Shown: positions 1,219 through 9,213 of the stretch, one piece after another | How the letters are laid out: each line of letters begins with the position of its first letter | How positions within the stretch are numbered: position 1 is the first letter of the stretch | DNA from: Calidithermus chliarophilus DSM 9957 | GTDB taxonomy: Bacteria; Deinococcota; Deinococci; Deinococcales; Thermaceae | Direction: 5' to 3' | NCBI RefSeq assembly: GCF_000430045.1 | Contig: NZ_KE387023.1 | Span: 976,096-1,009,221, forward strand | DNA length: 33,126 nt | Notes under the pieces: generated by a model | The model's database searches: none | Told to the model about the DNA's origin: nothing | What the model saw: the letters and a program-made list of their open reading frames with translations, nothing else | Translations under genes and position numbers: made by a program

Positions 1219-1302
1219 TCTTTCACCCCCCCTCGTGTGGTTTCAGCGTCCTGCTGTGGCTCGAGCGGCCTCGAGTTCACGCCTCCAAGCTAGGCGTGCC
1301 GA

Positions 1303-1346
1303 CTGATGAGTCCCTGTCGCTTCCCTGAGGCTAGGCTGAGAAAAGC
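1303..1346 (-). promoter_or_regulatory. Four 11-base-phased CTGA repeats (minus-facing array)
   Basis: CTGA occurs at 1303, 1325 and 1336, with CTGT at 1314; read on the minus strand this is TCAG/ACAG every 11 bases. The array faces the DUF1328 gene. Head-to-tail sites spaced one helical turn apart are typical of OmpR/PhoB-family response regulators. The family of the real binder is inferred. Confidence 0.55.
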
Positions 1347-1379
1347 CCCGTTCCTGTCGAGGGAAAATCGGGCTTCTCA

Positions 1380-1437
1380 TCAGCCGAATCTCAGCCAGGG
1401 GTCAGCCCAATTTCAAGCCTCGTGCCCAACCTAAATC
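1380..1437 (+). promoter_or_regulatory. Four 11-base-phased TCAG repeats and promoter of the TPR gene
   Basis: TCAG starts at 1380, 1391 and 1402, with TCAA at 1413, exactly 11 bases apart. A possible -10 box, TAAATC, lies at 1432-1437, which would start the message near 1445, just before the AGGAGG at 1452. The repeats would occupy the -35 region and upstream, as expected for activation by a tandem-binding regulator. Confidence 0.55.
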
Positions 1438-1463
1438 TGTCCTTGTGGGACAGGAGGCAAGGT

Positions 1464-2030
1464 ATGACCCGTCGGAACAAAGCGTTGAAAGTCCTTACGA
1501 CATCGGCTTTTCTGGCCAGCAGCCTGTGGCTGGGCAGTGCCTACGCCCAAACCACCCAACCCGCCCAACCGGCCCAGCCCGCCCAGGCCCCGCAACCGGC
1601 CATGACCGCCGAGCAGTACCACGCCGAGGCGCAGCGACTGGCCGTCGAGGCCGACGCCCGCTACGTCACCGACTTCTACGACCAGATCCTGTGGAACCAG
1701 GCCATCCGCAACGCCGAGGCCGCCGTGGCCGCGGAGCCGAGCAACCCCACCTACCTGCGCACCCTGGCCGAGCTCTACACCCGCACGCAGTTCTGGTGGA
1801 GGGCCTACCAGAACTGGCTCAAGCTCGAGCAGATGGCCCAGCTCGGCGATCAGGAGCGCCAGTGGGCGGCCTTGAGCGCGGCCAAGATCGGCTACATCCG
1901 GCTGAGCCGGGGCCTGGCGGTCGAGGCCATCCCCTTCCTCGAGGCCTCGCTGCGCTGGGAGGAGAACCCCCAGGTGGCGGCCATGCTCGACGTGGCCCAG
2001 CAGCAGGCGGCCGACACCGCCGTGCAATGA
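1464..2030 (+). CDS. Secreted TPR-like protein (short paralogue)
   Basis: The 188-residue product has a signal peptide (MTRRNKALKVLTTSAFLASS..., cleavage near AYAQ), then a Gln/Pro/Ala-rich linker of repeated QPA triplets, then helical TPR-like sequence. The part around LWNQAIRNAEAAVAAEP and LAELYTRTQFWWRAY matches the N-terminal half of the next protein (LWKRAIAKGEEAAALEP, LGNLYTETKWWIKAE), so the two are paralogues from a duplication. TPR domains bind proteins or peptides, here presumably in the cell envelope. The ATG at 1464 is chosen over a GTG at 1422 because AGGAGG (1452-1457) precedes it with 6-base spacing and it restores the signal peptide. Confidence 0.85.
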   Translation: MTRRNKALKVLTTSAFLASSLWLGSAYAQTTQPAQPAQPAQAPQPAMTAEQYHAEAQRLAVEADARYVTDFYDQILWNQAIRNAEAAVAAEPSNPTYLRTLAELYTRTQFWWRAYQNWLKLEQMAQLGDQERQWAALSAAKIGYIRLSRGLAVEAIPFLEASLRWEENPQVAAMLDVAQQQAADTAVQ

Positions 2031-2138
2031 CCTGCTTCGGCCGGGGCGGGCCTGAGGCACACCGCACGCCCGGGGTCGCCGGCCCCGTCACCCAGCCTCA
2101 CGGCTAGGCGTCGCGCGCCCGACCCCACGGAGGTGCAC

Positions 2139-3242
2139 ATGAAACTGTGGCTAAGCATCGCTGTAAGCTTGTTGACCGGCCTGGCGCTGGCGCTCCAGCC
2201 GGCCACCCGACAACTCCTCGACGAGGCCCAGGCCCTCGCCCAGCAGGCCCGCCAGCAGAACGTCGCCCCCTCGCCCGACGCCGACTTGTGGAAGCGGGCC
2301 ATCGCCAAGGGCGAGGAAGCGGCGGCCCTCGAGCCCCAGGCCCCCGAGGTCTGGCTGGTGCTGGGCAACCTCTACACCGAGACCAAATGGTGGATCAAGG
2401 CCGAGGAGGCCTGGAACCGCTACATCCAGCTCGCCGGGGTCAACGACCCCAAGGTGCGCCAGCAGGCCAGCCTGGTGCAGCTCAACCTGGGCTACGCCGC
2501 CTACCAGCGCGGGGAGTTCGACGTCGCACTCACCAAGTTCCAGGCCGCCGCCGAGCTCACCCCCAACGACCCCCAGCCCTACCAGTGGATGGGCCGCATC
2601 CACCTCGAGAGCGGCAACACCGCCGCCGCCCGCCAGAACTGGCAGCGGGCCGTGCAGCTCAAGCCCGACGCCACCAACCGCTACTTCCTCGAGCTCAGCC
2701 AAAGCAGCGTCAACTACGGCCGCGACGCGGTGAGCGCGTTCTACCTGGGTTACGAGGCCTACACCCTGGGCAAGGCGGGCGAGGCGCTGGGGCACTTCAA
2801 CCGCGCCGCCCAGGCCGCGCCCAACTGGCTGGAGGCCAAGCGCTGGGTGGCGCGGGTGCAGCTCGAGCAGGGCAACCCGGCCGAGGCGCTGCGGGTGTGG
2901 CGGGAGGTCGCGGCCTCGGGGCAGGCCAGCCCCACCGACCGCTACCAGTTGCGCCGGGCCGAGCTGGCCGCGCAGTACAACCTCCAGGCCGCCGACGCCT
3001 ACTTGCAAGGGGTGTCCAGCCACCAGCGCGGGGACCGGGCCTCCGCCCGGCGCTTCTTCGAGGCGGCGGTGCAGAGCGCCCCCGGCTTCGCCAGCGCCTG
3101 GTACTGGCTGGGCCGCACCGCCTACGAGCAGGGCGACTACGCGACCGCCGAGCGGGCCTACGGCCAGGTGCTCACCCTCGAGCCCGCCAACGCGCAGGCC
3201 CGCTACTGGCTCAACCGGGCCCGCCGGGCCATGGGGCGCTGA
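2139..3242 (+). CDS. Secreted tetratricopeptide repeat protein (long paralogue)
   Basis: The 367-residue protein has a signal peptide (MKLWLSIAVSLLTGLALA) and then tandem TPR units, for example LNLGYAAYQRGEFDVALTKFQAAAELTPNDP, QWMGRIHLESGNTAAARQNW and YWLGRTAYEQGDYATAERAYGQVLTLEPANAQARYWL (residue spacing 34). It probably forms a periplasmic or surface scaffold. The first 100 residues are paralogous to the protein just upstream, and the two genes are likely cotranscribed (108-base gap, no terminator in it). GGAGGTG at 2129-2135 supports the ATG at 2139. A hairpin at 3261-3283 ends the unit. Confidence 0.9.
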   Translation: MKLWLSIAVSLLTGLALALQPATRQLLDEAQALAQQARQQNVAPSPDADLWKRAIAKGEEAAALEPQAPEVWLVLGNLYTETKWWIKAEEAWNRYIQLAGVNDPKVRQQASLVQLNLGYAAYQRGEFDVALTKFQAAAELTPNDPQPYQWMGRIHLESGNTAAARQNWQRAVQLKPDATNRYFLELSQSSVNYGRDAVSAFYLGYEAYTLGKAGEALGHFNRAAQAAPNWLEAKRWVARVQLEQGNPAEALRVWREVAASGQASPTDRYQLRRAELAAQYNLQAADAYLQGVSSHQRGDRASARRFFEAAVQSAPGFASAWYWLGRTAYEQGDYATAERAYGQVLTLEPANAQARYWLNRARRAMGR

Positions 3243-3260
3243 GGGCAGGGATGAACCCGG

Positions 3261-3283
3261 AGGGCGGGGCCGCACCCCGCCCT
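3261..3283 (+). terminator. Probable terminator after the TPR pair
   Basis: AGGGCGGGG (3261-3269) pairs perfectly with CCCCGCCCT (3275-3283) across a 5-base loop. It lies 20 bases after the TPR stop codon. The following CTTCGCTGT is only weakly T-rich, so termination may be partial. Confidence 0.6.
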
Positions 3284-3295
3284 CTTCGCTGTGCA

Positions 3296-3339
3296 GCACC
3301 CCTCAGCCCCCTTTCAGCACCCTGTCAGAGCCGCATCAG
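3296..3339 (+). promoter_or_regulatory. Four 11-base-phased TCAG repeats before the GH13 gene
   Basis: TCAG starts at 3303, 3314, 3325 and 3336, exactly 11 bases apart and in the same orientation as the gene at 3450. It is the same motif and period as the arrays at 1303-1346 and 1380-1416, so the GH13 gene probably shares a regulator with the TPR and DUF1328 genes. No good -10 box can be fixed downstream. Confidence 0.55.
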
Positions 3340-3449
3340 CGCGTTTACCCACACTCGAAGAGGCTCCGGGCGAGTCGGAGGGACACCCGAAAGGGGGCGG
3401 CCTCGCCACCCCTTAGCGGGCGCGACGGTGCCAGCGGAGGTCGGACGCT

Positions 3450-5087
3450 ATGGAATTCACGCTATTCGCTCCCCACGTCGAGAAGGTCGAGCTCGTCGGC
3501 TCGTGGCTCGAGCGGCCCGTTCCCTTGGAGAAGGGCGAGGGCGGCGCCTGGCGGGCCGAGGTCGAGGTGCCCGACGGGCGGCACTGCTACAAGTTCCGCC
3601 TGAAGTCGCTCTCGCCCTTCCTGGACGGCGCGACCGTCGAGGTCGCCGACCCGCTCGCCCGCGCCGTGGACGAGGCCAGCGACGACGCCAGCCTGCTCGT
3701 CGTGCAGGGCGGGCGCGACGTCACCACCGCCCCCGGCTACGCCTGGCGGCACGACGACGTGCCGCTGCCCCAGGACAACGAGCTCGTGATCTACGAGCTG
3801 CACGTGGGCGAGTTCACCCACGACGGCAAGACCCCCGGCACCTTCGCCCGCCTCCTCGAGAAGCTCGACTACCTGCGCGACCTGGGGGTGAACGCGCTCG
3901 AGCTCATGCCCGTCAAGGCCTACCCCGGCCGCAACTCCTGGGGCTACACCCCGCGCCACTTCACCGCCCTGGAGAGTGCCTACGGCACCCCCGAGGACTT
4001 CAAGCGCCTCGTCGACGAGTGCCACGCGCGCGGCATGCGGGTGATCCTCGACATGGTCTTCAACCACTCCGACGACAAGGCCCCCCTCACCCAGATCGAC
4101 TTCTACTACTGGTACCGCGACACCCGCGAGGACGAGCTCTACTTCGGCCCCAAGCTCGACTACGAGCGCTTCGACGACACGCTGGGCCTCTTCCCGGCCC
4201 GCAAGTTCGCCGCCGAGGTGGCGGCCTACTGGGTCCGCGAGTACCACGTCGACGGCTACCGCCTCGACGCCGCCTACGTCATCGACAACTTCGACATCCT
4301 CCACGACCTGCGCCGCCACGCCAAGGAGGCCGCCGCCGGCAAGCCCTTCTACCTCGTGGCCGAGCACCTGCCCGAGAACCCGGCCGTGGCCGGGCCCGAC
4401 GGCCCCGCCGACGGGGCCTGGCACCAGCGCTTCGAGCTGCAGGTCGTGGCCACGCTGTGCGAGGGCGAGCTGCGCGAGTTCCGCTACGACCCCGGCAAGA
4501 CCCTCGAGGCCCTCGACCCGCGCAACCACGGCTACGCCGCCCCCGAGCGGGTGGTGCACTTCCTCGAGTCCCACGACGAGATCACCCTCATGCGGGTGCT
4601 GGGCGACTACGGCATCACCGGCGACAAGGCGTTGCGCAAGAACAAGCTGGGGGCCGCCCTGCTCTTCACCGCCGTCGGCAACCCCCTGCTCTACCAGGGG
4701 CAGGAGTTCGGCGGGCACCGCGCGCGCAAGCAGGAGGTGCGCCCGCTGCAGTGGGATCTGCTGGGGGCCGACTACGGCCGGGCGCTCAAGGAGCACTACG
4801 CCTTCCTGGCCCGCCTGCGCCACGGCTCCCCCGCCCTCAAAGGAGCCGAAATGGAACCCATACACCTCGACCAAGAAGGCGGCGTCATCGCCTACCGCCG
4901 GGGCTACGGCGAGGCGGAGGTGCTGGTGGTGGCCAACCTGCGCGACGAGGACAAGGCCCTCACCATCCCCTTCCCCGACGGGCGGTGGCGCGAGCTGACC
5001 TTCGGCTACGACATCGACTCCGCCGGCGGCCAGCTCGCCGACACCTTCCCGGCCTCCAGCGCCAAGATCTATGTCCGCCGGGGCTGA
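3450..5087 (+). CDS. GH13 alpha-glucan-active enzyme with N-terminal CBM48
   Basis: The 545-residue protein has an N-terminal immunoglobulin-like CBM48/isoamylase-N domain (about 1-95), a (beta/alpha)8 catalytic barrel (about 110-450) and a C-terminal beta domain. The four GH13 regions are visible: DMVFNH (201-206), DGYRLD with nucleophile Asp273 (268-273), VAEH with acid/base Glu305, and ESHD with Asp376. The layout resembles branching enzymes and malto-oligosyltrehalose trehalohydrolases, so it acts on alpha-1,4/1,6-glucans, but the exact reaction cannot be settled by eye. No signal peptide is present, so it is cytoplasmic, fitting glycogen or trehalose metabolism. GGAGGT at 3436-3441 supports the ATG at 3450. 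The start region carries the shared TCAG array. Confidence 0.9.
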   Translation: MEFTLFAPHVEKVELVGSWLERPVPLEKGEGGAWRAEVEVPDGRHCYKFRLKSLSPFLDGATVEVADPLARAVDEASDDASLLVVQGGRDVTTAPGYAWRHDDVPLPQDNELVIYELHVGEFTHDGKTPGTFARLLEKLDYLRDLGVNALELMPVKAYPGRNSWGYTPRHFTALESAYGTPEDFKRLVDECHARGMRVILDMVFNHSDDKAPLTQIDFYYWYRDTREDELYFGPKLDYERFDDTLGLFPARKFAAEVAAYWVREYHVDGYRLDAAYVIDNFDILHDLRRHAKEAAAGKPFYLVAEHLPENPAVAGPDGPADGAWHQRFELQVVATLCEGELREFRYDPGKTLEALDPRNHGYAAPERVVHFLESHDEITLMRVLGDYGITGDKALRKNKLGAALLFTAVGNPLLYQGQEFGGHRARKQEVRPLQWDLLGADYGRALKEHYAFLARLRHGSPALKGAEMEPIHLDQEGGVIAYRRGYGEAEVLVVANLRDEDKALTIPFPDGRWRELTFGYDIDSAGGQLADTFPASSAKIYVRRG

Positions 5088-5091
5088 GCTT

Positions 5092-6273
5092 ATGCAGCGC
5101 CGACCCGGGGAGTTCTTCACGCTCGAGGCTCGAGCCCTGCAGCGGGTGCTGTTCAACGCCATCCTCCTCGTCTTCGGGTTGCTGCTGGTGATCGAGTTCG
5201 CGGGGGCCGTGCTGACGCCGTTGGTGTTCATCCTGCTGGCGGTGGTGCTGGTGATGGGCCTCAACCCGCTGGTGGCGCGGCTGGAGGCCCGCTTCCGCGT
5301 CCCCCGCCGGCTGGGGGCGCTGCTGGTGGTGCTCGGGCTGCTGGCGCTGTTCGCGGGCCTGGTCGCGGTGCTGGTGCCGTTGCTGATGGCCCAGGGCACC
5401 CGCTTCGCCGAGAGCCTGCCCACGCTGATCGAGGGCTTCGAGGAGAGCCTGCGAACCCTCGGCCAGCGCTACCCGGTGCTGGCCCCCCTCAGCCAGGGGC
5501 TGCCCGAGGTCAACTTCTCCCGTTTCCTCGACGGGGACATGGTGGGGCGGCTGTACGCCATCGCCAGCTCGGTGGTGGGCCTGCTCGCCCTGACGCTGGT
5601 GCTGCTGACGCTGGTGCTGTTCCTGCTCATGAACCCCGACCCCCTGGTCAAGGGCGTGCTGAGCGGGGTTCCCCCGCAGAGCCGCCCGGTGGTCGAGCGC
5701 ACCCTGGTGCGCATCGGCTCCCAACTGGGGATGTGGCTCATCAGCACCATGATCTCCTCGGCCGTGGTGGGGCTGCTGGTGGGGATCGGGCTGGCGCTGG
5801 CGGGCTTCAAGAACGCGGTGCTCTTCGGGGTGGTGGCGGCCGTCACCAACCCCATCCCCTTCCTGGGCCCCTGGCTGGGCATCAGCCTGCCGGTGCTGGT
5901 GGCGGGGGCCGAAGGGGCCTGGAACCTGGCCTTCTGGGCCATCGTGGTGCTGGTGGTGGTGCAGCAGATCGACGCCAGCATCACCAACCCGCTGATCCTG
6001 GGCCGCACCGTGCACCTGCACCCCGCCTCGCTGCTGATGGGCGTGCTGATCTTCGGGTCGGTGAAGGGCATCATGGGCGTGTTCCTCACGGTGCCCTTGC
6101 TCATCATCATCAAGGCGCTGTACGAGGAGGTCTACCTCGAGCTCTTCAAGCGCCCCGAGGTGCCCGAGGAGAGCGTGAACAACATCGTCAGCGTCGGGCA
6201 CGGCGAGGAGGCGGACAAGGCCGAGCCTCCGCCGAAGGAGACCCCGCTGCCGCTGAAGGCCCAGGAGAAGTAG
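5092..6273 (+). CDS. AI-2E family (PF01594) membrane transporter
   Basis: The 393-residue protein is very hydrophobic, with about eight membrane segments: a paired N-terminal set, a long extracytoplasmic region around residues 100-165, and a C-terminal block containing NPIPFLGPWLG and an ASITNPLILGRTV stretch that is well conserved in this family. AI-2E permeases include an autoinducer-2 exporter and Na+/H+ antiporters, so the substrate is open. The charged tail after about residue 350 is cytoplasmic. An ATG at 5071 would overlap the GH13 gene by 17 bases but has no ribosome site. The ATG at 5092, 4 bases after the GH13 stop codon and behind GGGGCTGAG, is preferred. Cotranscription with the GH13 gene is likely. 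Confidence 0.85.
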   Translation: MQRRPGEFFTLEARALQRVLFNAILLVFGLLLVIEFAGAVLTPLVFILLAVVLVMGLNPLVARLEARFRVPRRLGALLVVLGLLALFAGLVAVLVPLLMAQGTRFAESLPTLIEGFEESLRTLGQRYPVLAPLSQGLPEVNFSRFLDGDMVGRLYAIASSVVGLLALTLVLLTLVLFLLMNPDPLVKGVLSGVPPQSRPVVERTLVRIGSQLGMWLISTMISSAVVGLLVGIGLALAGFKNAVLFGVVAAVTNPIPFLGPWLGISLPVLVAGAEGAWNLAFWAIVVLVVVQQIDASITNPLILGRTVHLHPASLLMGVLIFGSVKGIMGVFLTVPLLIIIKALYEEVYLELFKRPEVPEESVNNIVSVGHGEEADKAEPPPKETPLPLKAQEK

Positions 6274-6298
6274 GCCTCCGGTCTCCGCCTCAGGCACG

Positions 6299-6349
6299 GG
6301 GCAGGGGGCGCGCCCCCTGCCCGCCGGCGTTCAGCGTTCGGTCGCCGGC
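6299..6349. terminator. Convergent hairpins between AI-2E and LiaF-like genes
   Basis: A 24-base perfect palindrome (6299-6322, GGGCAGGGGGCG and its complement) is followed by GCCGGCG (6323-6329) pairing with CGCCGGC (6343-6349). The second loop, TTCAGCGTTCGGT, resembles the reverse complement of the dispersed heptad units. There is no T-run. The site lies between two converging genes and could stop either transcript. Confidence 0.5.
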
Positions 6350-6355
6350 TACAAG

Positions 6356-6865
6356 CTACCTGCGCTGCCGCATCAGCAGGTACACCCCCAGCGCGATCAG
6401 CACCAGCGGCCCGACGACCCGCAGCCCCGGTGCCCCGCCGAAGATGAAGAACTCGAAGAAGACGCCGAAGGCCACGAACAGGCCCAGGCCGGTGAGGATG
6501 AGGTTCCAGCCGCGCTGGCGGCTGGCCTCGTCGGAGCCCCAGCTCCCCATCAGGAACATCCCGACGCCCACGGCGGCGGGGATCAGCGCCCAGGCGTAGG
6601 CCCAGGTCTCGAAGCGGCCGGTGAGGTTCTGGAAAAACAGGATCAGCCCGATCGTGCTCACGATGCTGCCGGGGATGGCCAGCGGCAGCAGGTTCTTGCC
6701 GCCGAACAGCGCCCCCGCCAGCAGCAGCACGCCCGGAACCAGGATGAACAGCGGCCAGGCGAAGCTGCCGACGTCGAAATCGAACCACTGCCCCACGAGG
6801 AATAGCAAGCCCAGTGCCACCAGCACGGCGCCGATCACCAGGTTGGAATTGCGGGTCTCGTTCAT
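6356..6865 (-). CDS. LiaF/LiaI-like multi-span membrane protein
   Basis: The 169-residue protein has about five or six hydrophobic spans with short loops: NLVIGAVLVALGLLFLVGQ, WPLFILVPGVLLLAGALF, LAIPGSIVSTIGLILFF, WALIPAAVGVGMFLMG, NLILTGLGLFVAFGVFFEF and VVGPLVLIALGVYLLM. The GxxLxxxGxxFL repeats with FxWPLFILxxG are typical of the DUF5668/LiaI-LiaF membrane domain linked to envelope stress sensing. No beta-helical LiaF tail is present. The start ATG at 6865 has no ribosome site but lies 6 bases after a TACACT -10 box, so the message is probably leaderless. It is separated from secDF by a terminator. Confidence 0.75.
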   Translation of the reverse strand: MNETRNSNLVIGAVLVALGLLFLVGQWFDFDVGSFAWPLFILVPGVLLLAGALFGGKNLLPLAIPGSIVSTIGLILFFQNLTGRFETWAYAWALIPAAVGVGMFLMGSWGSDEASRQRGWNLILTGLGLFVAFGVFFEFFIFGGAPGLRVVGPLVLIALGVYLLMRQRR

Positions 6866-6871
6866 ACGCCG

Positions 6872-6877
6872 AGTGTA
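6872..6877 (-). promoter_or_regulatory. Leaderless -10 box TACACT of the LiaF-like gene
   Basis: On the minus strand TACACT is followed by six bases and then ATG at 6865. This TANNNT-N6-start layout is the pattern known for leaderless genes in Deinococcota. No -35 match was found. Confidence 0.5.
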
Positions 6878-6879
6878 GA

Positions 6880-6909
6880 GCAAAGAAGAAGGGGGGAAGT
6901 CCCCCCTTC
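6880..6909 (-). terminator. Terminator downstream of secDF
   Basis: GAAGGGGGG and CCCCCCTTC (6909-6901 and 6896-6888 on the minus strand, 4-base loop) form a 9-pair stem followed by TTCTTTGCTCT. It sits 30 bases after the secDF stop. The stretch between (6913-6937) holds a GATAGCC-type heptad fragment. Confidence 0.7.
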
Positions 6910-6939
6910 CTAGCCATCGGCTATCGGTTATCGACAACC

Positions 6940-9213
6940 CTACGCCTTAGCCACCTTGCGGCGGGCCGCCTCGCGGGTCTTGTACCACACCACCAGCGCC
7001 GAGACCACGTAGATCGAGGAGTAGGTGCCCACCACGAAGCCCACCGTGATCGCCAGCGAGAAGTCGCGCAGCACGGGGCCGCCCAGGAACAGCAGCGCCA
7101 GGATGGGCAGCATGGTGGTGAGCGCGGTCATGATGGTGCGCGAGAGGGTCTGGTTGATGGAGGTGTTGACGATCTCGTAGTAGCTGTAGCCGCGCATGAG
7201 CTTGAGGTTCTCGCGGATGCGGTCGGAGATGATCACCGAGTCGTTGAGCGAGAAGCCGATGATGGTGAGCAAGGCGGCCACCGTGGGGATGGTGAACTCG
7301 AGCCCGAAGAGGCTGTACATCCCGGCCACGATGGCGATGTCGTGGGCCACGGCGACGAGGCTGGCGACGCCGAAGACCCAGTCGAAGCGGATCGCCACGT
7401 AGACCAGGATCAGGCCCAGCCCCACCAGCACCGCCCAGATGGTGTTGCGGCGCAGCTCGGAGCCGATGGCCGGGCCCACCGTCTCCGACTGGAGCACCTG
7501 GGCCTGCAGCTTCTCGCCGAAGGCGCGCTCGAGCGCGATGCGGTTCTCCTCGCTGAGCTGCTTGACCCGCACCGAGAACTCGCGGCCGCCGCCGGTGGAG
7601 GAGAGGCTGGTGACGATGGCCTCGGCCCCGCCCGCCCCCTCGATGCCGGTGCCGTCGAGGAAGGAGCGGATCTGCTCGGAGTTCACGCTCTCGGACACCC
7701 GCACCGTGAAGGCGGTGCCCCCGGTGAAGTCGATGCCGAAGTTGAAGCCCTTCGTCAGCACGATCCCCCCGCCGATGGCGGCGAGGACCAGGCTCGCCAG
7801 CGTCACGTAGCGCGAGGGCTTCATGAAGTCGATCTTGGTGCCCCACAGCCAGTAGGGCGGGCGCACCTCGCGGATGGCGGCGATGCGCTCGAGCAGGTAG
7901 CGGCTGAAGATCAGGTTGGAGAACACCGAGGCCACCACGCCCACCGCCAGCGAGACCGCGAAGCCCTTCACGGGGCCGGTGGAGTACTGGTAGAGCGCGG
8001 CGGCGGCCAGCAGGTGGCAGATGTTGACGTCGAGGATGGTGACGATGGAGTGCGAGAAGCCGCCGGGGATGGCCTGGCGGAAGCGCTTGCCGTTCTTGAG
8101 CTCCTCCTTGATGCGCTCGAAGGAGAGCACGTTGCCGTCTACGGCGGCGCCCAGCGTCATGATCAGCGCCGCGATGCCCGGCAGGGTGAGGGTCACGCCC
8201 AGGCTGGTGAAGATGGCGAGGATGAGGACGGAGGTGTAGATCAGGCCCAGCGCGGCCACCAGGCCCATCCAGAAGCCGTAGTAGGCGAACAGCAGCACGA
8301 AGATCAGCACCGCGCCCACGACGGCGGCGCGGATGCCCGAGGCGATGGCGTCCTGGCCCAGCGTGGGGCCGATGGCGCGGGTCTCGGCGATGTTGAGCTT
8401 GACCGGCAGCGCGCCCGAGCGCAGCACCAGCGCGATGTCGGAGGCCTCCTCGAGCCCGGAGAGCCCGGTGATGATGGCGTTGCCGCCGGTGATGGCCTGG
8501 TTGATGTTGGGCGCGGTGTAGACCTTGTCGTCGAGCACGATCGCCAGGCGCTTGCCCACGTTCTGGCGGGTGACGTCGGCGAACTTCTGGGCGCCTTCGG
8601 GCTTGAAGGAGAGCTCGACCACCGGGCGGCCGGTGCCGGGCTCGAAGCTCGCGCGGGCGCTGGCGAGGTCGGCGCCGGAGAGCAGCGGCTCGCCGAGGTC
8701 GCTGAGCTTGATGAGGCTCTGCTCGAGGTCGGAGCGCTTGAGGCCGGGGTTGGCGCGGATCTGCTCGTTGATCTCGGCCACCGTGGTGCCGCTGGCGCCC
8801 TGGTTGACGATGCGGAACTCGAGCTTGGCCGTCTGGCCGATGAGCCGGATGGCCTTCTCCTGGTCGCTCTGCTTGAGGCCGGGCAGCTCGAGCACCACCC
8901 GGTCGTTGCCCTGCACCGTCACCAACGGCTCGGCCACGCCCAGCGCGTTGACGCGGTTCTCAAGCACGGTGCGGGCGGTGTCGAGGTCCTCCTGGCTGGG
9001 GTTGGGGGTCTCGGTCTTGAGGGTGATGCGCAGGCCGCCCTGGAGGTCGAGGCCCAGGTTGACCCGCGGCTCGCTGGCGGGGACCCAGGGCTTCCAGATG
9101 CCGACGACGGCGGCGACGAGGACCAGCAGCAGGAACAGGCCGGTCCACAAGGGGTTGGTCTGCGGGGTAGGGGTGCGCGGCTGGTAGCCAGGCCGCATGG
9201 GTTGGGGTCGCAT
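6940..9213 (-). CDS. secDF: Protein translocase subunit SecDF (fused)
   Basis: The 757-residue protein joins SecD and SecF in one chain, as in Thermus. After a first membrane span (23-41) comes the SecD signature LGLDLQGG (53-60), the large P1 periplasmic domain (about 60-280), and five further spans containing VDGN (358-361, where many homologues have VDAN) followed by FERIKEE. The SecF half starts near 470 with a span, GIDFTGGT (493-500), periplasmic P4, and five spans ending in SLNDSVIISDRIREN. SecDF uses the proton motive force to pull secreted proteins after SecA; the Asp in VDGN is the usual proton-relay residue. GGAAGGAG supports the ATG at 9213. A SecD-like partial paralogue lies two genes upstream on the same strand. 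Confidence 0.97.
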   Translation of the reverse strand: MRPQPMRPGYQPRTPTPQTNPLWTGLFLLLVLVAAVVGIWKPWVPASEPRVNLGLDLQGGLRITLKTETPNPSQEDLDTARTVLENRVNALGVAEPLVTVQGNDRVVLELPGLKQSDQEKAIRLIGQTAKLEFRIVNQGASGTTVAEINEQIRANPGLKRSDLEQSLIKLSDLGEPLLSGADLASARASFEPGTGRPVVELSFKPEGAQKFADVTRQNVGKRLAIVLDDKVYTAPNINQAITGGNAIITGLSGLEEASDIALVLRSGALPVKLNIAETRAIGPTLGQDAIASGIRAAVVGAVLIFVLLFAYYGFWMGLVAALGLIYTSVLILAIFTSLGVTLTLPGIAALIMTLGAAVDGNVLSFERIKEELKNGKRFRQAIPGGFSHSIVTILDVNICHLLAAAALYQYSTGPVKGFAVSLAVGVVASVFSNLIFSRYLLERIAAIREVRPPYWLWGTKIDFMKPSRYVTLASLVLAAIGGGIVLTKGFNFGIDFTGGTAFTVRVSESVNSEQIRSFLDGTGIEGAGGAEAIVTSLSSTGGGREFSVRVKQLSEENRIALERAFGEKLQAQVLQSETVGPAIGSELRRNTIWAVLVGLGLILVYVAIRFDWVFGVASLVAVAHDIAIVAGMYSLFGLEFTIPTVAALLTIIGFSLNDSVIISDRIRENLKLMRGYSYYEIVNTSINQTLSRTIMTALTTMLPILALLFLGGPVLRDFSLAITVGFVVGTYSSIYVVSALVVWYKTREAARRKVAKA

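Follow-up and report, generated by a model that had tools for sequence, protein, structure and literature searches.

Mtb PhoP binds head-to-tail on 11-bp direct repeats under strict spacing, with tri- and tetra-repeats being bound more tightly (PMC4832192); its box reads TCACAGC-N4-TCACAGC. The pho box of Escherichia coli also consists of 11-bp direct repeats. E. coli PhoB sites overlap the -35 position of the promoter (PMC3348028). General stress regulons are known under SigB in Bacillota and EcfG in Alphaproteobacteria, and their target families, CsbD for example, overlap with those described here. In the genome of Calidithermus chliarophilus DSM 9957, we characterized arrays of TCAG tetrads recurring every 11 bases, together with a response regulator, RR-A, as a candidate for reading them. 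The closest solved structure to RR-A is Mtb PhoP (200 bits). Four of the six side chains that contact bases are shared (N212, V213, E215, Y217), whereas two base contacts are changed (S216 to V, Y220 to Q). The half-site is TCAG(CC), four units are the norm, and the regulon is a different one. Judged by an operator of TCACAGC units and six contacts, the Mtb PhoP type is not met, as we observe TCAGCC and 4/6 contacts. The likeness to PhoB lies in repeats placed over the -35 position with a -10 element behind them, and PhoB is the best NCBIfam match of the regulator. However, the half-site is another one, and RR-A was rejected as PhoB because its 234.3 bits fall under the TIGR02154 cut-off of 296.2. 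Similarly, RR-A scores 226.6 bits against the CzcR/SilR/CopR family (TIGR01387), and arrays in Chloroflexota and with the G019 paralog are followed by HMA-domain proteins, but RR-A remains below the cut-off of 279.2 and this genome has mainly stress genes as targets, so that the assignment as CzcR-type heavy-metal regulator was rejected. MtrA was also rejected, the score being below the curated cut-off. While SigB and EcfG use an alternative sigma factor, a response regulator would act here at promoters keeping an ordinary -10 element.

The window, that is, the whole stretch of 33,126 nucleotides that was analysed, contains three arrays (Table 1). The first-pass annotation had reported them with ten of twelve tetrads exact and facing a TPR pair, a DUF1328 gene and a GH13 gene. 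All three positions and strands held, as did the number of exact tetrads and the DUF1328 and GH13 families, the latter enzyme also carrying a CBM48 domain. The TPR pair held only in part, being firm for the second protein; for the first, the TPR match was marginal (NCBIfam, E=7e-4) and a Pfam match was not found. TreZ is the best NCBIfam match of the GH13 enzyme, but a score of 216 bits against a cut-off of 538.8 excludes calling it a certain TreZ. Within the window alone, the three-unit pattern with up to two mismatches matched 6 times as compared to 2.7 expected, and 9 of 100 shuffles reached as many. The pattern is thus mildly unusual there and no proof; its significance is settled by the whole genome.

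Table 1. Arrays, promoter hexamers and predicted target genes in the window, and the two regulator genes preceded by arrays
Feature	Position	Strand	Remarks
Array 1, TCAG/TCAG/TCAG/TCAA, 11-base step	1380..1416 (starts 1380/1391/1402/1413)	+	faces TPR genes
Array 2, TCAG/TCAG/ACAG/TCAG, 11-base step	1303..1339 (low ends 1336/1325/1314/1303)	-	faces DUF1328 gene
Array 3, four TCAG, all exact, 11-base step	3303..3339 (starts 3303/3314/3325/3336)	+	faces GH13 gene
-10-type hexamer CAACCT	1427..1432	+	begins exactly 10 bases past array 1
-10-type hexamer TAGCTT	1287..1292	-	begins exactly 10 bases past array 2
-10-type hexamer CACACT	3350..3355	+	begins exactly 10 bases past array 3
DUF1328 protein, 54 aa	1057..1218	-	predicted target of array 2
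Secreted-looking protein, 188 aa	1464..2030	+	predicted target of array 1; AGGAGG before ATG
TPR-repeat protein	2139..3242	+	probably co-transcribed with preceding gene (1464..2030)
GH13 enzyme, N-terminal CBM48	3450..5087	+	predicted target of array 3
RR-A	C3:459568-460242		identical copy on C7
RR-B	C7:467924-468589		followed by its own HAMP/HisKA/HATPase kinase

Searching the whole 4.69-Mb genome, as had been proposed at the outset, returned 91 matches for the four-tetrad pattern at an 11-base step, allowing up to three mismatches, compared to 3 for the reversed pattern. With three tetrads and at most one mismatch there were 66 matches, 19 of them exact, and none in reverse. Under the same settings, a 10-base step yielded 2 matches, none exact, and a 12-base step 38 matches, 1 exact, its own reversed control reaching 12; a 12-base step preserves the codon frame, and such repeats occur in coding frame. 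The 11-base step is therefore specific, being enriched where the 10-base step is not, as required of an OmpR/PhoB-type operator. Merging left 48 strong arrays, of which 45 are intergenic, the coding share of the window being about 85% with the same gene caller, a simple and rough codon-usage scorer; for the arrays, only stretches of 6-16 kb around the strong ones were read. The outcome that would have refuted the first-pass annotation, arrays being equally common inside genes, was not observed, and the comparison it had suggested revealed that the 11-base phasing is kept in orthologous promoters. Most arrays sit tens of bases ahead of an ORF in the same direction, and the 7 bases between the units are poorly conserved. 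We consider it likely that the arrays mark about 45 promoters or transcription units of this genome.

Aligning the arrays on their last good tetrad (n=47, one identical duplicate excluded) uncovered a fixed promoter geometry. In 38 of 47 arrays, NANNNT follows exactly 10 bases after the last unit, as compared to a background mean of 1.9 at unrelated offsets, and the stricter TANNNT occupies the same 10-base offset in 19 arrays vs 0.28. The distance recurs in other Thermaceae (31/33), other Deinococcota (5/9) and Chloroflexota (15/20), and all three window arrays obey it. The promoter code accordingly reads four TCAG at 11 bases, then 10 bases, then NANNNT. If the hexamers serve as -10 elements, tetrad starts fall near -26, -37, -48 and -59, and the third unit would therefore replace the -35. 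It is a likely inference that the array stands in for the -35 box in the manner of PhoB sites; both PhoB-like features are seen, namely overlap with the -35 position and a constant distance from the -10, with the reservation that transcription start sites were not measured. Several targets have their start codon about 6-12 bases from the -10 hexamer (L067 near 2813-2850, L056 near 4948-4972, L071 near 2994-3022), and their mRNAs may be leaderless.

Among the 17 Trans_reg_C matches of this genome, arrays directly precede response-regulator genes of two kinds: RR-A, present in two identical copies, and RR-B. Both proteins match PF00486 far above its cut-off and align over their full length to Mtb PhoP; having a receiver and a winged-helix Trans_reg_C domain, they are of the OmpR/PhoB type. 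The clade in question is set apart by a branch supported at 98/98, and we refer to it as KQ clade after its recognition helix NVVEVYVKQLRQK. The helix follows the pattern N[VIM][VL]E[VT][YF][VIM][KSM]QLRQK, with RR-A having I for L. The association holds in both directions: 6 of 20 loci of relatives chosen by array position only contain a close RR-A relative, and public-genome loci chosen by RR-A similarity carry arrays, with the reversed pattern at 0. An array lies 20-130 bp upstream of the start in 11/20 clade genes, and at about 250 bp in one more. Most arrays beside a regulator gene face the divergent neighbour, and autoregulation is therefore not implied. A stretch at the end of C7 (L081, G000:C7:919000-927782) repeats the RR-A/Transgly_assoc region of C3 (L052, around 455000-463000) in identical copies; the cause may be genuine duplication or overlap in the assembly. 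A related genus has a dense 22-kb island into which about 12 arrays are crowded and which includes the regulator gene (L088-L089, G004:C1:417000-439000). In the literature searched, which largely excluded subscription journals, we found no report specific to the operator or the regulator in Thermaceae or Chloroflexota.

Across 61 genomes, the clade was called at 58% identity or more, the next matches having 48% or lower, and it was present in 11. Genomes with the clade (n=11) carry 11.2 arrays each, compared to 1.2 in those without it (n=50; Mann-Whitney p=3.4e-6, or p=1.1e-5 without the genome of the window). These p-values are only indicative, the genomes being related to one another. Within genus g3, two clade-bearing species have 13 and 16 arrays and the clade-less species 0-2; two further clade-bearing species have 1 array each. 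The clade is missing from all 17 genomes of the Thermaceae genus g5 (2.1-2.4 Mb), with one array match in all 17, and it is present in other Deinococcota and in Chloroflexota; the earlier proposal of a Thermaceae regulator therefore held only partly. Exceptions occur in either direction. Only one array match was obtained in each of G021 and G033, both of which have the clade. Conversely, a KQ-clade gene is missing from G007, with 9 arrays, and from G052, with 11 arrays and 2 control matches. For G007, a gene missed by the strict threshold was rejected as explanation, since no KQ-clade gene was found down to 1e-15 and none of the 13 paralogs read has the helix. Given these two genomes, another regulator may therefore read arrays as well, perhaps the sister clade L063/L221/L232/L234, though this is no more than a possibility. 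L152 and L153, Chloroflexota genes outside the clade, also have an adjacent array. In two genomes, a strong array precedes a transglutaminase gene 2-3 kb from a sister-clade regulator (L063:3826-3862 and 6112-7053; L092), and this regulator, too, might conceivably read arrays.

Orthologs in Chloroflexota are accompanied by the same arrays, and the 10-base geometry is unchanged there. Seven Chloroflexota clade genomes, with KQ or MQ in the helix, have 5-12 array matches each, the control giving 0-2, the exact ones being found mostly on the contig that carries the regulator. The closest array-less relatives (L146-L149) carry the helix NVLEVY[VI]RYLRQK, with RYLRQ vs KQLRQ, and these four have only 0-1 arrays per genome. 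The helix positions varying with the arrays include the base-contacting Y220 of Mtb PhoP. A change of the recognition helix thus probably accompanies array loss in Chloroflexota, a correlation for which binding data are lacking. In the tree, Deinococcota members of the clade are nested among Chloroflexota, and the G019 paralog from Thermaceae groups with Chloroflexota (loci L097/L138 and L145), HMA and other target genes being common to both. The paralog suggests that regulator and targets could have been transferred together, and with the nesting and the common target types, the regulator/operator module looks portable.

The predicted targets point to stress protection. Arrays precede both DUF1328 genes of this genome, its only CsbD gene, behind which Hsp20 is next, and both Transgly_assoc genes, which are identical copies. 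DUF1328 and CsbD are absent from six relatives checked and are therefore probably acquired genes. Trehalose metabolism is represented by a glycosyltransferase-OtsA-OtsB operon divergent from TreS, by TreY (probably second in its operon) and by the TreZ-like GH13 enzyme of the window. Further targets are Usp, topoisomerase IB, uracil-DNA glycosylase, FMN reductase, Nramp, DUF326 proteins, DUF2171 and a DUF883/YtxH-like protein. The array is kept in orthologous promoters of the DUF883-like gene (4 genomes), of Transgly_assoc and Nramp (3 each), and of Usp, transglutaminase, uracil glycosylase and glycosyltransferase genes (two each). In Chloroflexota and with the G019 paralog, HMA-domain (heavy-metal) proteins lie behind arrays. 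Stress families are thus under the operator by annotation, without an enrichment statistic over all genes. A role in general stress, including osmotic stress in this genome, is likely, and is inferred from target families in the absence of expression data, with many targets lacking a family. Of the two functions suggested by the first-pass annotation, the stress link is supported by these families and the phosphate link is not: no phosphate-uptake genes were seen among the targets. A phosphate regulon as main reading was rejected, the one PhoU-like target (L062) having three units and no -10 at the expected place.

Several other readings of the arrays can be considered. Another OmpR-type or SARP-type regulator, from the sister clade (L063/L221) or a long Trans_reg_C protein, could be the actual reader, the KQ genes being merely members of its regulon. 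In favour of this view, the array-rich genomes G007 and G052 have sister-clade genes and no KQ clade, G000 has a strong array about 2-3 kb from the sister-clade gene L063, and many regulons include unrelated regulators. Yet array number in genus g3 largely tracks the KQ clade, the recognition-helix change in Chloroflexota goes with array loss, and an array linkage across two phyla would be unexpected for a mere regulon member. We therefore regard this alternative as unlikely and retain the KQ clade as the reader, an assignment that is probable and well supported by indirect evidence, without binding data.

Repression is less plausible still. Since units 3 and 4 extend over the -35 and the spacer, a protein bound there could obstruct RNA polymerase, but the fixed 10 bases to a weak -10 without a recognisable -35 correspond to PhoB-type activation (PMC3348028), and one exact spacing is not usual for repressor sites, leaving this reading very unlikely. 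That the arrays are chance, codon-periodic or repeat-element sequence without regulatory role might be argued from the mild enrichment in the window alone and from the 12-base-step repeats in coding frame. The reversed control, the two other steps (10 and 12 bases) and the intergenic placement rule out chance and codon periodicity. Moreover, 91 matches stand against 3 reversed ones, nearly all are intergenic, the -10 is found at one exact spacing in four taxonomic groups, and the inter-unit 7 bases are poorly conserved, unlike in element copies, so that a non-regulatory origin is all but excluded.

What the computation shows are the arrays, their phasing and position, the -10 geometry and the clade association. 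That the arrays are operators of some OmpR/PhoB-type regulator rests on strong evidence and is very likely, although inferred without binding data; the first-pass idea of one regulon under such a regulator, with sites spaced by one helical turn, has strong support, and a name can now be given to the clade. Our preferred reading is that the TCAG arrays are KQ-clade operators activating mainly stress-protection genes. We hold this to be likely, with binding, phosphorylation, activation and the stress signal all being inferred. The phosphorylated regulator would bind head to tail with one subunit per 11-base unit, usually four subunits; the -35 position would be covered by the third unit, and a weak -10 would lie ten bases past the last one. 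Recruitment of RNA polymerase by the bound regulator would follow, in the way known from PhoB where a promoter lacks a good -35; activation rather than repression is inferred because the fixed geometry is PhoB-like. As a result, about 45 transcription units would be activated, mainly for stress protection, including DUF1328, CsbD with Hsp20, Transgly_assoc, Usp, trehalose synthesis, and DNA and redox repair enzymes.

A bolder reading, which we would neither favour nor dismiss, is that a two-component regulator with four-unit arrays runs the general stress response in place of an alternative sigma factor and, jointly, that the regulator/operator module was exchanged between Chloroflexota and Deinococcota, acquired genes such as DUF1328 and CsbD being wired in by array gain. 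Stress control in this lineage is little described; the analysis adds a large regulon that can be tested, a candidate regulator identified by name, and a promoter code that predicts targets from sequence alone. If true, it would represent a natural case of recognition-helix changes co-varying with operator presence in two phyla, and would show how a stress programme may be moved between bacteria as a module.
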